Shown piece after piece: positions 38,821 through 45,614 of a DNA stretch of 64,000 bases (position 1 is the first letter of the stretch; every line of letters starts with the position of its first letter). Source of the stretch: Candidatus Saccharimonadota bacterium (lineage in GTDB: Bacteria > Patescibacteriota > Saccharimonadia > Saccharimonadales > Saccharimonadaceae). The stretch spans positions 1 to 64,000 of the forward strand of contig JAFRBI010000003.1 of NCBI GenBank assembly GCA_017404935.1, given 5' to 3'. The position numbers were made by a program, and so were the translations under genes. The notes below the pieces were generated by a model. It was not told the DNA's origin and made no database searches. It was given only the letters and a program-made list of their open reading frames with translations.

Positions 38821-38869
38821 TTGACAAAAGCGGAATGACTATATTATAATAGGGTCATACGGGTCATAC
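38821..38869 (+). promoter_or_regulatory. Strong promoter and tandem operator of the DGR target gene
   Basis: TTGACA (38821-38826), an 18-bp spacer and TATAAT (38845-38850) match the consensus -35/-10. Two tandem 9-bp units GGGTCATAC (38852-38860 and 38861-38869) span the expected start of transcription and could be a repressor site. Confidence 0.75.
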
Positions 38870-38873
38870 AAAA

Positions 38874-40481
38874 ATGTTATTGATAAAAAATATAAACTGT
38901 TGTGCTAATATGCACATCAAAAAAGCAAAAAAGCTCCGTATGGTTAGTACGGGGGCTTTCTGTGTTCTTGGTGTAATCGGGTTTTTGGGGGTTTTCCCGA
39001 TCACTAAGACTTCTGATGACGCCGAGGCGACCGTAACTCCAGCAACCACCACCCTTACGATGACCTCTAGTTCTACGACAGCTTCGGTGAGCGTGACACC
39101 AATGTCTAGTAATGGTACCTTTGCGACCTCGGAATCTGCAGACGAAGTGGCATTTACCGTCACCACCAACAATGTGACGGGATACAACCTCACCATCGCT
39201 GGCAGCGACGATACTAGACAATTGTCCAACACGGATGCGGCGGCGACGCTGGATTCGATCAGTGCCACTACTACGGCGGCGGACTTTGCTTCTGGGGCGG
39301 CAGCTACCTATTCCAACAAGTGGGGCTATAAACCTAGCTTTTATAACGGTGCCGCTAACACCAATTACCTTCAGGCTCCAACCACTACTGCAGAAACTCT
39401 AAACCAAACCACTAGCGCCAATACCACTGCAGATACCTATACCATTGGACTTGGTGCAAGAGTAGATTATACCAAACCAGTAGGAACTTATACTAATACT
39501 TTTGTCATTGAAGCTGTAGCAAACAATGTAGCCTACCAAATCAATTATCTAGATAATTCTGGCGCTACGGTGACTGGTCTGCCGGCGGCTGAAGGAAGCT
39601 CAATTGCTACGGCCTCTGCCTTCACCCTAGATACTGGCACTCCTACTAGAACTGGCTACACCTTCCAGGGTTGGTGCTATGGCACAGCAGACTACACAAC
39701 CAACCCAACTGGTTGTACCGGCACTACTTACCAAGCCGGCGATAACTTCGTCTTTACCAGCTATTCTTCCACCAGCACTAACACAGCAAATCTTTATGCG
39801 ATGTGGAAGCTAGATAAACTTTATATCCAGGACTATACCAAAGCTACTTGTCAAACTGACGCAGCTTCGGGTAATGTGACGCTTACGGATAAACGCGACA
39901 ACAACGACTACACCGTCCGCTATATCAATGGCAACTGCTGGATGACGCAGAATCTAAGATACCAGGGCGATACCGTAGGTAGCACCTCTACTACCACTTC
40001 CTGGATTATGAAGTCTGCCACATCCAATATTAGCACAGATACTACTATGACTATGACCGACCTCACTGCTGGCAATAGCTACGACGTAGCTAGATACCAT
40101 GTACCCACTAGTACACAAATTCCATCAGGCCTTACCGCAAATGATATTGGTGTCTGGTATAACTACGCCGCAGCTTCTGCTATGACTATTACTGGAAGCT
40201 CAAACCAAAACCCCCAAACTTACGATATCTGTCCTAAAGGTTGGAGACTACCTACTAATACGGAACAATCCGGTATCACTAGTTACGCCAGTGCTTATTC
40301 CCCTGTTACCGGTGGCGTCTTCAACGGTGGTACACTCCTCACTACCGGTTACGGGTTCTGGTGGTCGTCTACTTCCTACAGCGCGACGAATCGCTACTAC
40401 CTGTACTGGTATGGCTCTAGTCTGAATACCAGCTACTACGGTCGCGGCAGCGGGTTCTACGTGCGCTGTGTTCGCTCGTAG
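38874..40481 (+). CDS. DGR-diversified surface protein with FISUMP domain
   Basis: 535 residues. A hydrophobic N-terminal signal or anchor (GAFCVLGVIGFLGVFPI) is followed by a long Thr/Ser-rich stalk, an InlB-B/Listeria-Bacteroides-type repeat (INYLDNSGATVTGLPAAEGSS...GYTFQGWCYG...ANLYAMWK) and a C-terminal FISUMP module (NGNCWMTQNLRYQG, YDICPKGWRLPT, WWSSTS, FYVRCVRS). The last about 64 residues are the variable repeat (from base 40289). It is probably the binding face that the retroelement changes, displayed on the surface for contact with host cells or substrates. ATG 38910 is an alternative start. Confidence 0.88.
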   Translation: MLLIKNINCCANMHIKKAKKLRMVSTGAFCVLGVIGFLGVFPITKTSDDAEATVTPATTTLTMTSSSTTASVSVTPMSSNGTFATSESADEVAFTVTTNNVTGYNLTIAGSDDTRQLSNTDAAATLDSISATTTAADFASGAAATYSNKWGYKPSFYNGAANTNYLQAPTTTAETLNQTTSANTTADTYTIGLGARVDYTKPVGTYTNTFVIEAVANNVAYQINYLDNSGATVTGLPAAEGSSIATASAFTLDTGTPTRTGYTFQGWCYGTADYTTNPTGCTGTTYQAGDNFVFTSYSSTSTNTANLYAMWKLDKLYIQDYTKATCQTDAASGNVTLTDKRDNNDYTVRYINGNCWMTQNLRYQGDTVGSTSTTTSWIMKSATSNISTDTTMTMTDLTAGNSYDVARYHVPTSTQIPSGLTANDIGVWYNYAAASAMTITGSSNQNPQTYDICPKGWRLPTNTEQSGITSYASAYSPVTGGVFNGGTLLTTGYGFWWSSTSYSATNRYYLYWYGSSLNTSYYGRGSGFYVRCVRS

Positions 40482-40532
40482 CGGCTCGTTGCGCGCGCCT
40501 AGAGGTGCTCCGGCTCTCTCCGACCTCCACCT
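40289..40532 (+). repeat. DGR variable repeat (VR)
   Basis: Aligned with the template repeat 42689-42932 (opposite strand) without gaps. Up to base 40521 I count 27 differences at template A positions and one other (G to T at 40349). Sixteen Asn codons of the template read V, L, T, Y, F, S or G here. The repeat passes the stop codon (40479-40481) into a GC-rich, nearly invariant tail, as expected for an initiation-of-mutagenic-homing region. Confidence 0.95.
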
Positions 40533-40544
40533 GGCGCAAAAAAC

Positions 40545-40566
40545 GCCCCCGCCCATAGGCGGGGGC
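40545..40566 (+). other. Hairpin/cruciform downstream of VR
   Basis: Perfect 9-bp stem GCCCCCGCC/GGCGGGGGC with loop CATA, 13 bp after the VR. Inverted repeats at this position assist target recognition in characterised DGRs. Confidence 0.75.
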
Positions 40567-40592
40567 CGCCGCAAAAAAAATGAAAGGAGAAG

Positions 40593-41543
40593 ATGACAAA
40601 AAAAGACGAAACTGGAATTTCAAAAGCAGAAAGCTTGTCAAAGCCGGCAGTAAGGAAGGTGCTGAATGAAAAACACAACCACCGTGGACGTGGGCTGACC
40701 GACCCCGAGAAGAAAAAGCGCTACGCTGAATATGAAAAGCGTAAGAAAGTGGTTTTTGAAATCGAGAAACGGAATATGGACTATCTGGTGCTGTTTTTGG
40801 CTTCAGACGGTGTGCTTGATGAAAACAGGGAAGGCGGGGAACACGACGCGACTAACTATTATGTGATGGGTGGAAATTCGGCATTGATTTATGTTTCGGA
40901 TATTGCCGGGAAAATTGGCAGAAATTCCAAACTTCATTCTGATGACGACGCGTCGCCGATTAAGTTCAAAACTGGCATTGCAAAAATTAAGGGACTAAAA
41001 AAGTTTACGGAAGCGCTTGGAGGAATTGGAATTGAAAGGCAATTGACCAAAAGTGGCGACGAGATTGCGTATTTTAAACTCAAGAAAGCTTATGACAAAA
41101 AAGAATTAAAGACGGCAGTCAAAAAGTTAAAAGCCATGCGGGAAGAAAATAACGCGCTTTTATATGGCGAGGTGCTACACCCGACTCTGCATAAATTGAT
41201 TTTGCAACTAAGGGTAATGCTCTATAGAAAAATCAAGGCGACTAACGCGGAATATCGTGTAATGATGGGGCAGCCGATGGCTGAGCTCTTATTTGAGCTC
41301 AATAAACACTACGTGGAAATGGTGCGCGGAGTGATAGACGATAGAGAAGGATTGGTGAGGATGCGCATTACTATGGATAGAATTAGTGATATGGTAGCGA
41401 TGATGCAGGAACTTGATTTGTGGGACGTACTGTTTGTAGTGAGAACGGCGGAAACGATTGTAAAAATTCAGAAAAATATCGACGAGCTAATTGTTGTTTA
41501 TGATAAAAAGAGATTAAAAGATGAAAATCATGCCGAAAGATAG
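40593..41543 (+). CDS. avd: DGR accessory protein: Avd-like helical bundle with extra N-terminal domain
   Basis: 316 residues; typical Avd is about 120-130. The C-terminal part (about 195-305: LHKLILQLRVMLYRKIKATNAEYRVMMGQ..., VRMRITMDRISDMVAMMQELDLWDVLFVVRTAETIVKIQ) looks like the four-helix Avd that binds the reverse transcriptase. The N-terminal part (about 65-185: YLVLFLASDGVLDENREGG..., YFKLKKAYDKKELKTAVKKL) is an alpha/beta domain, perhaps MutS-I-like mismatch recognition as reported for some DGR accessory proteins; that part is uncertain. AAAGGAG precedes ATG, and the 3' end overlaps the RT gene. Confidence 0.75.
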   Translation: MTKKDETGISKAESLSKPAVRKVLNEKHNHRGRGLTDPEKKKRYAEYEKRKKVVFEIEKRNMDYLVLFLASDGVLDENREGGEHDATNYYVMGGNSALIYVSDIAGKIGRNSKLHSDDDASPIKFKTGIAKIKGLKKFTEALGGIGIERQLTKSGDEIAYFKLKKAYDKKELKTAVKKLKAMREENNALLYGEVLHPTLHKLILQLRVMLYRKIKATNAEYRVMMGQPMAELLFELNKHYVEMVRGVIDDREGLVRMRITMDRISDMVAMMQELDLWDVLFVVRTAETIVKIQKNIDELIVVYDKKRLKDENHAER

Positions 41544-42690
41544 AGAGGGGACAAAATGGCTACAAAATTATCAAAATCAGCTACTTTTTGAACTTTATAT
41601 TGCTTATTTGTATGCTAGAAAGGGCGGGAAGCGCGGAACTTTTGATGAACATAAGTTTGAGATTTTTCAGTTTATGAATTTGTATAATTTGATGGAGACG
41701 ATTACAAAGAAAGAATTTTATCCTTCGCGTGGGGTGGCACATATTATTTTCAACCCGGTGATTCGGGAAATTTTTGCGGCGGCATTTAGAGACAGAGTGG
41801 TGCACCACTGGATTTATAATTTGATTTATGATTGGTGGAATAAGCTATTTATCTTGGACTCATATTCTTGTCGGGAGGGGAAGGGGACACTTTTTGGGAT
41901 TTTAAGATTACAAGAACAAATTAACGAGGTAGAGAAGAAATACGGTGAGAGAGCTTGGATTATTAAACTAGATATCCAGGGGTATTTTATGAGTATAGAC
42001 CGAGAAATTTTATATAAATTGGCAATCAAAGGTCTAGACGAGCAATTCAAAAAGAATCGTGGTGTTGTCTATGAAATGGCAAAATTTTGTTTGCATGAAA
42101 TTATTTTTGATAATCCGTGCGACGGAGTAATTAAACGAGGTTGGCCGTATGATTGGCGGAATTTGCCGGATACTAAAAGCCTTCTGAAGCAATTGCCAGG
42201 GGTTGGAATTGTGATTGGAAATCTGACATCGCAGCTTTTGTCAAATATTTATCTGAACGAATTAGATAAGTATGTTACAAATGAGTTGGGCTGGAAATAT
42301 TATGGGCGGTATGTGGATGATTTTTATATCGTGGCGCCAGAATCTCTGGCGGATGAGGCTTGGGCTGACCTTGAAAAAATTGAAAAGTTTTTGAAAAAAG
42401 AGTTGAGGCTGACTCTGCATCCAAATAAACGTTCTAAACAACCGTCTTCTAATGGGGTAGCGTTTCTTGGCGCGGTGGTTTATCCTACGGCAATCCATCC
42501 GGGGAAAAGGCTGAAAAAGCGGACCAGGAGAGCTTTTTATGATTTTGTGAATGGGAAGGCTTCTTCTGAGACGATTATATCTTATATTGGGCATATGCGG
42601 TATATGAAACATCATAAGTTTTTGTCTGAGTTGTGTGAGGAAGTGGGATTGCCTGCGGATTTTTGGTGTCAATACGAAAACGTGGCATAG
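41521..42690 (+). CDS. DGR reverse transcriptase
   Basis: 389 residues. RT motifs in order: KLDIQGYFMSIDREIL, VIGNLTSQLLSNIYLNELDKYV, GRYVDDFYIVAPE, LHPNKRSKQPSSNGVAFLG. The [IVL]GxxxSQ form in place of QGxxxSP marks the DGR clade, and YVDD is the catalytic box. No maturase or endonuclease domain follows, so this is not a group II intron enzyme. It copies the template RNA with adenine-specific errors into VR. Confidence 0.95.
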   Translation: MKIMPKDREGTKWLQNYQNQLLFELYIAYLYARKGGKRGTFDEHKFEIFQFMNLYNLMETITKKEFYPSRGVAHIIFNPVIREIFAAAFRDRVVHHWIYNLIYDWWNKLFILDSYSCREGKGTLFGILRLQEQINEVEKKYGERAWIIKLDIQGYFMSIDREILYKLAIKGLDEQFKKNRGVVYEMAKFCLHEIIFDNPCDGVIKRGWPYDWRNLPDTKSLLKQLPGVGIVIGNLTSQLLSNIYLNELDKYVTNELGWKYYGRYVDDFYIVAPESLADEAWADLEKIEKFLKKELRLTLHPNKRSKQPSSNGVAFLGAVVYPTAIHPGKRLKKRTRRAFYDFVNGKASSETIISYIGHMRYMKHHKFLSELCEEVGLPADFWCQYENVA

Positions 42691-42932
42691 GTGGAGTGCG
42701 GAGAGAGCCGGAGCTCCTCTAGGCGCGCGCAACGAGTCGCTACGAGCGAATACAGCGCACGTAGTTCCCGTTGTTGCGATTGTTGTTGTTGGTATTCAGA
42801 CTAGAGCCATTCCAGTTCAGGTTGTAGCGATTCGTCGTGCTGTTTGAAGTAGACGACCACCAGTTCCCGTTCCCGGTATTGTTGAGTGTACCACCGTTGA
42901 AGTTGCCACCGGTAACAGGGGAATAAGCACTG
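42689..42932 (-). repeat. DGR template repeat (TR), inverted relative to VR
   Basis: Read on the minus strand it matches VR over 244 bases. It is rich in AAC/AAT codons (GGC-AAC-TTC-AAC..., AAC-AAC-AAC-AAT-CGC-AAC-AAC), the classic TR signature that lets A-mutagenesis reach many residues. Its 3' end abuts the RT stop codon. Confidence 0.95.
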
Positions 42933-43239
42933 CTACCAATATTGCCCTTTTCTAAAGACAAGTAGTGAGGTAACTACTACGGGCCTGTCCACATACTCTA
43001 GAGGAATACTACATACAGCAATCTTCCCGACGGGATAAAAGGATAACTTTTGAACGCCACCAGAGTGCTTGACGCTGGTTTTTGCGATCGTATTGCCTAA
43101 TTAACAAAGGGTATCCTAGACCTCCACCTTGCGGCGACTTTTGATGAGGAATAGCTTTTTGCTGGTGTCCTTCGCGAGTTGGGGATGAATATCCCGGGTA
43201 TATTTTAACATAAACACCTTGTGACGCCCAGGTTTTAAC
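42933..43239 (-). ncRNA. Probable 5' part of the DGR template RNA
   Basis: Non-coding, immediately upstream of TR on the same strand. It holds several hairpins (AGTAGT/ACTACT at 42962-42979; ACCAG/CTGGT at 43059-43079; CCCG/CGGG near 43028). A -10-like TTAAAATA at 43199-43206 (minus strand) would start an RNA that includes this segment and TR. DGRs need such structured flanks for cDNA priming. The exact ends are unknown. Confidence 0.45.
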
Positions 43240-43263
43240 CATAAGCCAGGGGTGGGGGGTTGA
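43240..43263 (+). repeat. G-rich 24-bp repeat, copy 2
   Basis: Identical to 17866-17889. Similarity continues through GAGTGTGGT..AAGT to about 43290. It lies upstream of a MazF-like gene. Confidence 0.6.
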
Positions 43264-43328
43264 AAATTTGGGTGGAGTGTGGTAGAAGTGTTGTGACTAA
43301 AAATAATTTTGGTGGGCGGAAAGGAAAT

Positions 43329-43730
43329 ATGGACAAGAAAGATTTTAATGGGTGGATAAAATTAAAAACTAAACTACATTATTTAGGGCACCCTATGGAT
43401 ATTAGCGAGGGTGATGTGTGGTGGTGTGCGGCCGGAGAGAACATCCAGACAGAAATAAATGGTAAAAGTAGTAGATTTTCTAGGCCGGTGTTGGTGGTGA
43501 AAAAGTTTGGTAGATATAGTTTTTGGGGAGTGCCACTTACTACAAAAATACACGATGGTAGTTGGTATGTTTCTTTCGAATTCCAAGATAGAATCGAGAT
43601 AGCGGCAGTTCATCAAATGAGAAATATGGACGTTTCAAGATTGTATGACAAAATTGGGCAGGTTCCAGATTCTGATTTGAAAATCGTGAAAAATAGAATC
43701 ATTGATTTGCTATTTAATTCAAGTAAATAA
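43329..43730 (+). CDS. PemK/MazF-family toxin-like protein
   Basis: 133 residues with the MazF fold pattern: ISEGDVWWCAAGENIQ...SRPVLVVKKFG..FWGVPLTTKIHDGSWYV, and AAVHQMRNMDVSRLYDKIGQVPDSDL. The family cleaves mRNA at short motifs, usually with an antitoxin. No antitoxin gene is seen beside it, so it may be a solitary or domesticated copy. ATG 43329 is chosen because homology starts there; the upstream frame overlaps the G-rich repeat. Confidence 0.8.
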   Translation: MDKKDFNGWIKLKTKLHYLGHPMDISEGDVWWCAAGENIQTEINGKSSRFSRPVLVVKKFGRYSFWGVPLTTKIHDGSWYVSFEFQDRIEIAAVHQMRNMDVSRLYDKIGQVPDSDLKIVKNRIIDLLFNSSK

Positions 43731-43818
43731 AAAATGTGCCCCAACCTCACGGATGGGGGACGACGGGTATTCCCGAATATACTTTTATTATAGCAAACTT
43801 TGTGAAATCTGTAAAGTT

Positions 43819-44109
43819 TTACAAGGCTTTTCGGGCTTCGTTGGCGGCTCTATCGGCGAGCTCGTTTAACTCTTCGCCGGCGTGGCCTTTTACCCAAACG
43901 AGCTTAACGTTGTGGGTAGTGTATAGTTCGTAAAGAACTTTGACGAGATCTAAATTTTTGATTTCGCCTTCGCGTTTTTTCCAGCCACGTTTTTTCCAGG
44001 CGGGTGCCCATTTGGTAACTACGTTAATCCAGAATTCGGAATCGGTGCGAATTTCTAGGGGTTCTGTGCCAGCCATTTTGATGGCTTCAATAAGAGCGGT
44101 GCCTTCCAC
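43819..44109 (-). pseudogene. Truncated RNase HI copy lacking its N-terminus
   Basis: 96 residues that correspond to residues 43-138 of the intact copy at 45198 (MEGTALI.AIK...RTDSEFWINVVTKWAPAWKKRGWKKREGEIKNLDLV...VWVKGHAGEELNELADRAANEARK). The first catalytic Asp (YTDGS) is missing, so it should be inactive. DNA similarity also extends past the stop (TTATTATAGCAAACTTT). It is one end of a duplication that flanks the fic gene. Confidence 0.85.
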
Positions 44110-44195: not shown

Positions 44196-44216
44196 AATGC
44201 CACAGCTTGTGGCATT
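44196..44216. terminator. Palindromic terminator at the end of fic
   Basis: AATGCCACA/TGTGGCATT with loop GCT, overlapping the fic stop codon; followed on the minus strand by TTGAC. Confidence 0.5.
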
Positions 44217-45135
44217 ATTCAGAAATTTCTTCTGAAACTTCCAAAATAGAGTTAGCGATTAGTAGCTCTAGTGGGTCATAAATCTCTCGCTCGTTTGCGA
44301 GCTCCAGATATTTGTAATAGGCTTCGCGTTTTTCTTTATAAAGAATTGGGGGGATCAAGTCTAATTTTAGTGCCAAGGCAAAAAGCAGAAGCCTGCCGGT
44401 GCGACCATTGCCATCTGAGAACGGATGGATTTTTTCAAACTCTGCGTGGGTTCTGGCTAGCAAGTTGATTTTGTCCATAGTCTCACTATTAGCTTCATTA
44501 CACCAATTATTAATGAGCTCTGGGATTTTTAGATAATTAGCGCGGGCGACTTTGCTACCCGTAACCCTAACGCCGTGGTTGCGCCAGAGACCAGCGTTAG
44601 ATATAATGCCACTCATCATTCTAAGGTGGGTGTTTAAGATTATTTCTGGAGTGAAAACAAAATTTGGGCCCTTCTCCACAAGCTCATCTAGCAAATAATA
44701 GAGAGCCGTTTGGTGGTTGATAGCCTCACGTTGCTCCGTTTGAGTGCGGTTTTTAAGGGTTTGATTCTCGTAAATTACCGCCTTGACATCTTGTTCGGTC
44801 ATAGTGCTGCCTTCGGTGCCATTACTGTGATAAGTAAGGGAAGTAGTGATTTTTTCTAGAAGCTCACGGTCTCTAGCGATTTTTTTAGCGCTGCATTTCT
44901 CTTTGAGAGCTCTTTTTTTGGTGGTTTTTAATTCTTCTGGATTTACCGTATCTGCTCCCATCACGTCCGCAAAAATTAGGTCGATCTTCTGTTTGGTCTT
45001 ATCGCGTGGTTCGGATTTTTCATTAGCCCAAGCATTTAGGGACACAAAACTAACACCCAGCTTGCTAGCCAAGGTTTCCTGGCTCCAAGAAGTGGCCAAG
45101 AGAATTTTTTTAATTTTATCACTATATTTTTCCAT
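44215..45135 (-). CDS. Fic-domain protein with N-terminal HTH
   Basis: 306 residues. The N-terminal helix-turn-helix (WSQETLASKLGVSFVSLNAWANEKSEPRD) resembles XRE types. Next is an SNGTEG segment fitting the (S/T)xxxE(G/N) inhibitory motif, then the Fic core with HPFSDGNGRTGRLLLF. Such enzymes AMPylate or otherwise modify proteins and are held off by the inhibitory Glu. TATAAT lies 6 nt before ATG. The promoter overlaps repeats of CAAACTTTATAAA, probable binding sites for its own HTH domain. It sits between two rnhA copies. Confidence 0.9.
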   Translation of the reverse strand: MEKYSDKIKKILLATSWSQETLASKLGVSFVSLNAWANEKSEPRDKTKQKIDLIFADVMGADTVNPEELKTTKKRALKEKCSAKKIARDRELLEKITTSLTYHSNGTEGSTMTEQDVKAVIYENQTLKNRTQTEQREAINHQTALYYLLDELVEKGPNFVFTPEIILNTHLRMMSGIISNAGLWRNHGVRVTGSKVARANYLKIPELINNWCNEANSETMDKINLLARTHAEFEKIHPFSDGNGRTGRLLLFALALKLDLIPPILYKEKREAYYKYLELANEREIYDPLELLIANSILEVSEEISE

Positions 45136-45180: not shown

Positions 45181-45197
45181 GTTTTGGTTGTGAAAGT

Positions 45198-45614
45198 TTA
45201 CAAGAGTTTTCTGGCTTCGTTGGCGGCTCTATCGGCGAGCTCGTTTAGCTCTTCGCCGGCGTGGCCTTTTACCCAAACTAATTTGATATCGTGAGATTGA
45301 TACAATTCATATAATTTTTGAACGAGGTCTAAGTTTTTGATTTCGCCTTCGCGTTTTTTCCAGCCACGTTTTTTCCAGGCGGGTGCCCATTTGGTAACTA
45401 CGTTAATCCAGAATTCGGAATCGGTGCGGATTTCTACTGGCTCGCCGCCTGCGCATTTGATGGCATTAATAAGAGCGGTGCCTTCCATTCTAATGTTGGT
45501 GGTGTTTTTATCGGCGCCGGTTTTGACAGGCCGTTTAGTATTAACATCTATAATTGCCCAGCCACCAGGACCTGGGTTGGGGCTAGCGCTGCCGTCTGTA
45601 TAAAAAGTTTTCAT
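45198..45614 (-). CDS. rnhA: Ribonuclease HI
   Basis: 138 residues. Removes RNA from RNA-DNA hybrids. The catalytic residues are present: YTDGS (D7), RMEG (E44), IRTDSEFW (D65) and ELADRAANEA (fourth acidic). VKGHAGEELNE carries the conserved His. It is a complete copy, 2 kb from a truncated one. Confidence 0.95.
   Translation of the reverse strand: MKTFYTDGSASPNPGPGGWAIIDVNTKRPVKTGADKNTTNIRMEGTALINAIKCAGGEPVEIRTDSEFWINVVTKWAPAWKKRGWKKREGEIKNLDLVQKLYELYQSHDIKLVWVKGHAGEELNELADRAANEARKLL

Follow-up and report, generated by a model that had tools for sequence, protein, structure and literature searches.

How can a mutagenic template be transcribed and copied when it faces the gene of its own reverse transcriptase (RT) and ends inside its stop codon? 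The question is raised by a diversity-generating retroelement (DGR) in a window of 64,000 nucleotides, the whole stretch analysed here, from a Candidatus Saccharimonadota bacterium (contig JAFRBI010000003.1, assembly GCA_017404935.1). The RNA layout of the BPP-1 type, in which the template repeat (TR) lies on the RT strand and a structured spacer precedes RT, does not occur at this locus: the TR is on the opposite strand and its 3′ end falls in the RT stop codon. As judged by the sequence comparisons below, the best explanation is probably a working DGR whose template is a stand-alone RNA gene convergent with RT, with a leader that may replace the 3′ spacer.

An inverted template in a complete element

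The target (38874-40481, 535 aa), accessory (40593-41543, 316 aa) and RT (41521-42690, 389 aa) genes follow one another on the + strand, and then comes the TR on the - strand (42689-42932). Together with the variable repeat (VR; 40289-40532, + strand), the TR forms an inverted pair of 244 nt which aligns without gaps at 88% identity. Up to position 40521, VR carries 28 substitutions, 27 of them at template A (14 A>T, 10 A>G and 3 A>C) and one G>T; adenines occupy 59 of the 233 TR positions. The full 244 nt contain 30 differences, of which 28 fall at A. Sixteen template Asn codons are altered in VR, to V, L, T, Y, F, S or G. The inverted pair, its substitutions and the sixteen codons had been described in an earlier reading of the sequence (hereafter the original prediction), and the description was right to the base. 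It also had the TR abutting the RT stop: the two are indeed adjacent, but the TR actually overlaps the stop codon by 2 nt.

The VR tail, corresponding to the initiation of mutagenic homing (IMH) region, extends 51 nt beyond the target-gene stop codon on the + strand. Immediately 3′ of VR, at the DGR stem-loop position, lies a 9-bp hairpin, GCCCCCGCC-CATA-GGCGGGGGC (40545-40566, + strand; scan z=6.4). Hairpins with z>3 were observed 3′ of VR in 34/74 genus loci, compared to 2/74 for the RT control.

The identity of the accessory gene as avd was confirmed through its predicted structure. By sequence, its product has no significant match in Pfam, NCBIfam or PHROG, and none in the PDB. In the AlphaFold model (pLDDT, the per-residue model confidence, 90.7), an N-terminal alpha/beta domain is followed by an Avd-type helix bundle, where residues 197-308 match the BPP-1 Avd bundle (4dwl, Z 15.6, root-mean-square deviation 1.6 Å, 109 residues; Foldseek probability 1.00). 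The list of structural matches gave no assignment for the N-terminal domain, but barely probed it. Avd-like proteins of eight loci (L013, L014, L021, L027, L038, L045, L046 and L050) start with an XRE-type helix-turn-helix, called by Pfam HTH_3 in L014 and judged by sequence in the other seven; such a domain could link DGR expression to regulation.

The RT (PF00078) carries the motifs GIVIGNLTSQ and YVDD. When its profile was compared with solved structures, the top match was the RT of 8ub7 (E=4.6e-42), a DGR ribonucleoprotein, and both the motif and this best solved relative bear out its assignment as a DGR-type enzyme. The target is an open reading frame with a hydrophobic N-terminal segment and a FISUMP/Lcl_C-like C-terminus carrying VR. 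Its FISUMP label stands on the Pfam side, barely (PF09603, 34.3 bits for a cut-off of 33.9), and falls slightly short on the NCBIfam side (TIGR02145, 39.5 bits for a cut-off of 41.65). As to a C-type-lectin fold of the target domain at VR, PF07603 (Lcl_C) scores 30.1 bits (E=6e-7), under the Pfam cut-off, and the structure model there, with a pLDDT of ~40, is too poor to be read. With the TR/VR pair, a DGR RT and the Avd fold all present, the locus is, as originally proposed, a complete DGR, able to rewrite one end of a surface-protein gene from an RNA template.

Convergent templates across the genus

The genome of the window is a draft of 740 kb in 11 contigs. Since the closest RTs in named genomes are those of Candidatus Saccharibacteria, mostly from ruminant gut and including Candidatus Nanosyncoccus alces, we infer from sequence that it is a Saccharibacterium of or near Candidatus Nanosyncoccus, in line with the reduced, episymbiont-type host that had been expected. 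Two further DGRs of this genome (contigs 8 and 3) have VR, an avd-like gene and RT on the + strand and the TR on the - strand directly after RT. RT relatives are present in 83/147 genomes of the genus, and in 78/79 genus loci with an identifiable TR/VR pair the TR lies 3′ of RT on the opposite strand. The same convergent layout was found in 60/64 loci from named genomes, a set that overlaps partly with the 79. The original prediction would have been refuted by a TR missing from the closest relatives; these keep it.

A draft assembly could in principle suggest a trivial origin, namely an inverted TR created by misassembly of a metagenome-assembled genome. We give this practically no credence: the layout recurs in three loci of the genome itself and throughout the genus set, including NZ_PRLM contigs of Ca. 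N. alces, and the artefact is thus refuted by independent genomes.

A neutral origin deserves more attention. The TR may have been inverted once in an ancestor and the layout simply inherited, with any nearby promoter transcribing the TR and any complementarity of its leader being a relic. Consistently, on an RT tree (FastTree, 126 rows) the convergent label needs 5 changes, compared to a mean of 37.8 when shuffled, so that one or few inversions would be enough; a single well-supported clade of 85 rows takes in almost every convergent row, although details of this tree are unsure. However, 62 genus loci have VR upstream, on the RT strand, and 16 have it downstream, on the TR strand. Its position varies while TR orientation is fixed; therefore the target flips and the TR stays convergent with RT, which speaks against mere inheritance. 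With the promoter and leader data given below, we regard neutral inheritance as quite improbable.

Outside the genus other layouts prevail. In other families of the order, five loci (three from one genome) have the TR downstream on the RT strand, and in a phylum-wide sample of Patescibacteria, in contrast to the window, the TR is upstream on the RT strand in 15/19 loci, with two convergent. Among RT relatives in viral contigs (n=70), 68 are canonical and none convergent. No phage origin of the layout was found, since TR plus leader matched no DNA among phage records and the closest RTs from viral contigs have the canonical layout. A distant RT gene (L007:7097-8410), which shares 32% identity with the window RT along part of its length, has no detectable TR/VR.

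A template with a probable promoter of its own and a leader predicted to pair with its end

The TR RNA had been predicted to come from its own promoter. Over the genus this is supported: a TATAAT facing the TR at -450..-120 is present in 52/72 loci, whereas dinucleotide shuffles gave 12.1 ± 3.0 (maximum 20) and the opposite strand 32. These facing -10 boxes, enriched over fourfold compared to shuffles and strongly so ~150-300 nt upstream, also argue against transcription from any nearby promoter as supposed under neutral inheritance. In the window itself the candidate is only TAAAAT (43202-43207, - strand), with a TG before it as in extended -10 boxes and at the position seen in the genus. The putative 5′ leader of the TR RNA (42933-43195, - strand), between this box and the TR, is suggested by the promoter and structure enrichment in the genus. 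The accompanying statement that the TR RNA is antisense to the operon holds only where the transcript continues beyond the TR 3′ end and enters the RT gene; otherwise it is overstated. Taken together, these sequence data make it almost certain that the locus is a DGR of functional type whose TR is transcribed separately and convergently.

We then considered the TR end. Its last bases, termed IMH* (A′ strand, CTCCACCT, 42689-42696, - strand), are complementary to a strand in the leader (A strand, AGGTGGAG, 43122-43129, - strand), and this A/A′ helix has a mean pair probability of 0.99 in the unconstrained fold of the window. In each of 73 loci, leader positions -270 to -95 were scanned against TR-end positions -18 to +16 for the best ungapped helix. 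The mean was -15.9 kcal/mol, compared to -11.7 to -12.7 in five control windows, and helices reaching -16 kcal/mol occurred in 32/73 loci, compared to 2 to 11 in the controls. When partners were permuted, 0/20,000 draws reached the observed mean (-15.93 vs -13.26 ± 0.28), a test that kinship should make conservative as strands of relatives also pair. In unconstrained folds, natural leaders and TR ends formed 11.7 expected pairs, and chimeras with foreign TR ends 6.9 (p=1.3e-7); the window has 13.6 and its two paralogues 11.3 and 15.6. The helix effect was not seen in canonical viral loci (n=69). RNAduplex of whole leaders against tails, which allows long loops, had given no cognate signal (-51.6 vs -51.4) and was set aside for the ungapped-helix scan.

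Substitutions point in the same direction. When leaders and tails were aligned separately, helices fell on the same columns within several clades and carried compensatory changes, as in GCAGGG/CCCTGC vs GTGGGG/CCCCAC (L018, L023) and GGGGCAT/ATGCCCC vs GGGGTAT/ATACCCC (L074, L092). In L053, L055 and L087 the pairs are wholly different yet complementary. Leader strands that vary among loci while remaining complementary, with paired changes, speak against a relic. From this comparative evidence, leader and TR end probably pair in the RNA.

A conserved motif directly follows the leader strand on its 3′ side, with a purine-rich stretch containing adenines, a CAC and a hairpin (P2). A covariance model of it together with the A strand (R1) was built from 17 hand-registered loci, with the window left out of training. 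It finds the window motif at 43090-43128 (- strand; 11.6 bits, E=0.02 in a 368-nt search). Applied to 62 held-out sources, it gave 15 matches, of which 10 were in leaders, on the TR strand and 59-283 nt 5′ of TR; leaders represent an estimated 1.6% or so of the sequence searched. R1 pair counts stem from the hand-made register and so provide no independent evidence. Four viral loci, closely similar to one another, gave R1 matches just 3′ of TR; considered as a moved module, these were discounted as AU-rich terminator-like hairpins of one group.

How would such an RNA be copied? In BPP-1, the folded spacer 3′ of TR recruits the RT-Avd complex and supplies the internal adenine from which cDNA is primed at IMH* (PMC12875486). 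We propose the leader as a substitute for this spacer because the strand pairing with IMH* sits in the 5′ leader with conserved adenines next to it, and because the TR often abuts the RT stop, while the RT antisense beyond 120 nt shows no excess structure. A minus-strand TR transcript would start near 43195 and fold so that leader strand A pairs with IMH*. The RT-Avd complex would bind the leader and begin cDNA synthesis at this site; an adenosine directly 3′ of strand A may be the starting point, and in this orientation a cDNA begun at the leader strand's 3′ end would extend into TR. The leader would thereby take over the role of the BPP-1 spacer, and the adenine-mutated cDNA would rewrite VR in the target gene. 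That the leader/TR-end pairing primes cDNA is, in our estimation, an evenly balanced proposition. Slightly more doubtful is the evolutionary corollary, that a module recruiting RT-Avd and priming cDNA has moved from 3′ of TR to the 5′ leader, tied back by a long-range helix, with no 3′ spacer needed.

Alternatively, the convergent TR may mainly set RT dosage: its transcript would enter the RT gene and lower RT expression, the helix would be a stability or termination device, and priming would rely on a short 3′ element as in BPP-1. The proximity of the two genes is compatible with such regulation, as the TR end is ≤10 nt from the RT stop or inside the RT gene in 17/73 loci (9 overlapping), and so are the strong, terminator-like hairpins after TR, possibly ending the TR RNA, in 16/74. 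However, in loci having them, hairpins between TR and RT would limit antisense overlap, and the RT antisense beyond 120 nt is no more structured than expected (mean z 0.02). Moreover, it is IMH*, the site of priming, that carries the compensatory changes, and other windows show little or no helix signal. We therefore consider a mainly regulatory role unlikely, though less so than neutral inheritance.

Several observations weigh against a priming leader on a stand-alone template RNA. The window TAAAAT box is non-consensus and was missed by a plain consensus scan. Its A/A′ helix is just 8 bp, a strong single helix is missing in more than half of the 73 loci, and the best helix of paralogue L005 is weak, though in folds the leaders of both paralogues still pair with the TR end. 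As the R1 alignment was registered by hand and padded, the held-out search alone counts as a test. In some loci a hairpin and 30-110 nt remain 3′ of the TR and could hold a short 3′ element. Finally, the same method gave no signal for a helix between IMH* and the 3′ spacer in canonical elements.

Activity, surroundings and relation to known DGRs

Evidence for activity comes from relatives of the window's species. L069 and L070, convergent loci of two genomes, have TRs that are 98.7% identical, and their VRs differ at 24/61 A and 0/173 other positions. Because these differences are confined to adenine positions, the sequences indicate that the convergent-layout DGR is active. In paralogues L045 and L046, VR differences fall at 25/71 A and 3/148 other positions. 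In the genome of the window, a second FISUMP-like gene end (L325:2580-2765; contig 8, 52579-52764) matches the window TR at 80% identity along 186 nt, and 28/34 substitutions lie at TR adenines. It has no IMH tail and no RT nearby, and is probably a former or frozen target.

Beyond the TR promoter lies a G-rich intergenic repeat, CATAAGCnnGGGGTGGGGGG (window 43240-43259), with 9 copies in the genome and 0 of the reversed control pattern. A PemK/MazF-like orphan gene (43260-43730; the window copy was tested against Pfam) adjoins the promoter, and similar open reading frames are found behind a FISUMP gene (contig 3, L326:2742-3248) and behind an RT gene (contig 7, L007:8766-9284). Further on, two RNase HI copies (43810-44108 and 45189-45487), 85% identical and one truncated, flank a Fic/DOC gene with a helix-turn-helix domain (44215-45135, - strand).

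With the BPP-1 DGR the window element shares the RT family, the Avd fold, adenine mutagenesis between TR and VR, and an IMH with a stem-loop after VR. It differs in order, since BPP-1 has avd-TR-sp-brt on one strand and a 3′ spacer that primes (PMC12875486), whereas here the TR faces RT and the 5′ leader pairs with IMH*. In loci of the window type there is often no room for a spacer, and the window Avd, unlike that of BPP-1, carries a large N-terminal domain. Inverted DGRs were defined by Schillinger 2012 as group 4, with RT alone opposite TR, VR and target (PMC3521204). A TR transcribed apart from RT is common to both, but in the window the TR alone is flipped while VR and target remain on the RT strand, which places it outside group 4; 16 of its relatives do fit that strand pattern. 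The same authors considered TR and VR on opposite strands theoretically possible, and one multi-VR element has two distant opposite-strand VRs (PMC3521204). Yan 2019 listed 122 cassette patterns, one with RT inverted. Like DGR clade 2 (Patescibacteria) of Roux 2021 (PMC8144416), the window element is a cellular DGR of candidate phyla radiation bacteria with a poorly annotated target; a term search of the main text of that article returned no mention of orientation or strand. In the literature we found neither the leader described nor a genus in which this layout is fixed, although the layout itself may have been noticed in Paul 2017, Wu 2018 or Handa 2025. What appears new, as read from sequence, is a TR behaving as its own RNA gene, a genus-wide layout and a conserved leader element predicted to pair with the TR end; the last two had escaped the original prediction.

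A conserved 5′ leader pairing with the far end of the template suggests that copying starts differently from the textbook phage system. If so, the DGR component that initiates mutagenic copying can change its place relative to the template, and nature would offer a design in which template and enzyme are separate transcripts. As for the organisms, an active DGR system, often in several copies, is present in more than half of the species sampled from a gut Saccharibacteria genus whose genomes are mostly <1 Mb, and its targets are secreted FISUMP-like proteins. The genus loci also offer a wealth of natural variants in which the RNA determinants of priming could be mapped.

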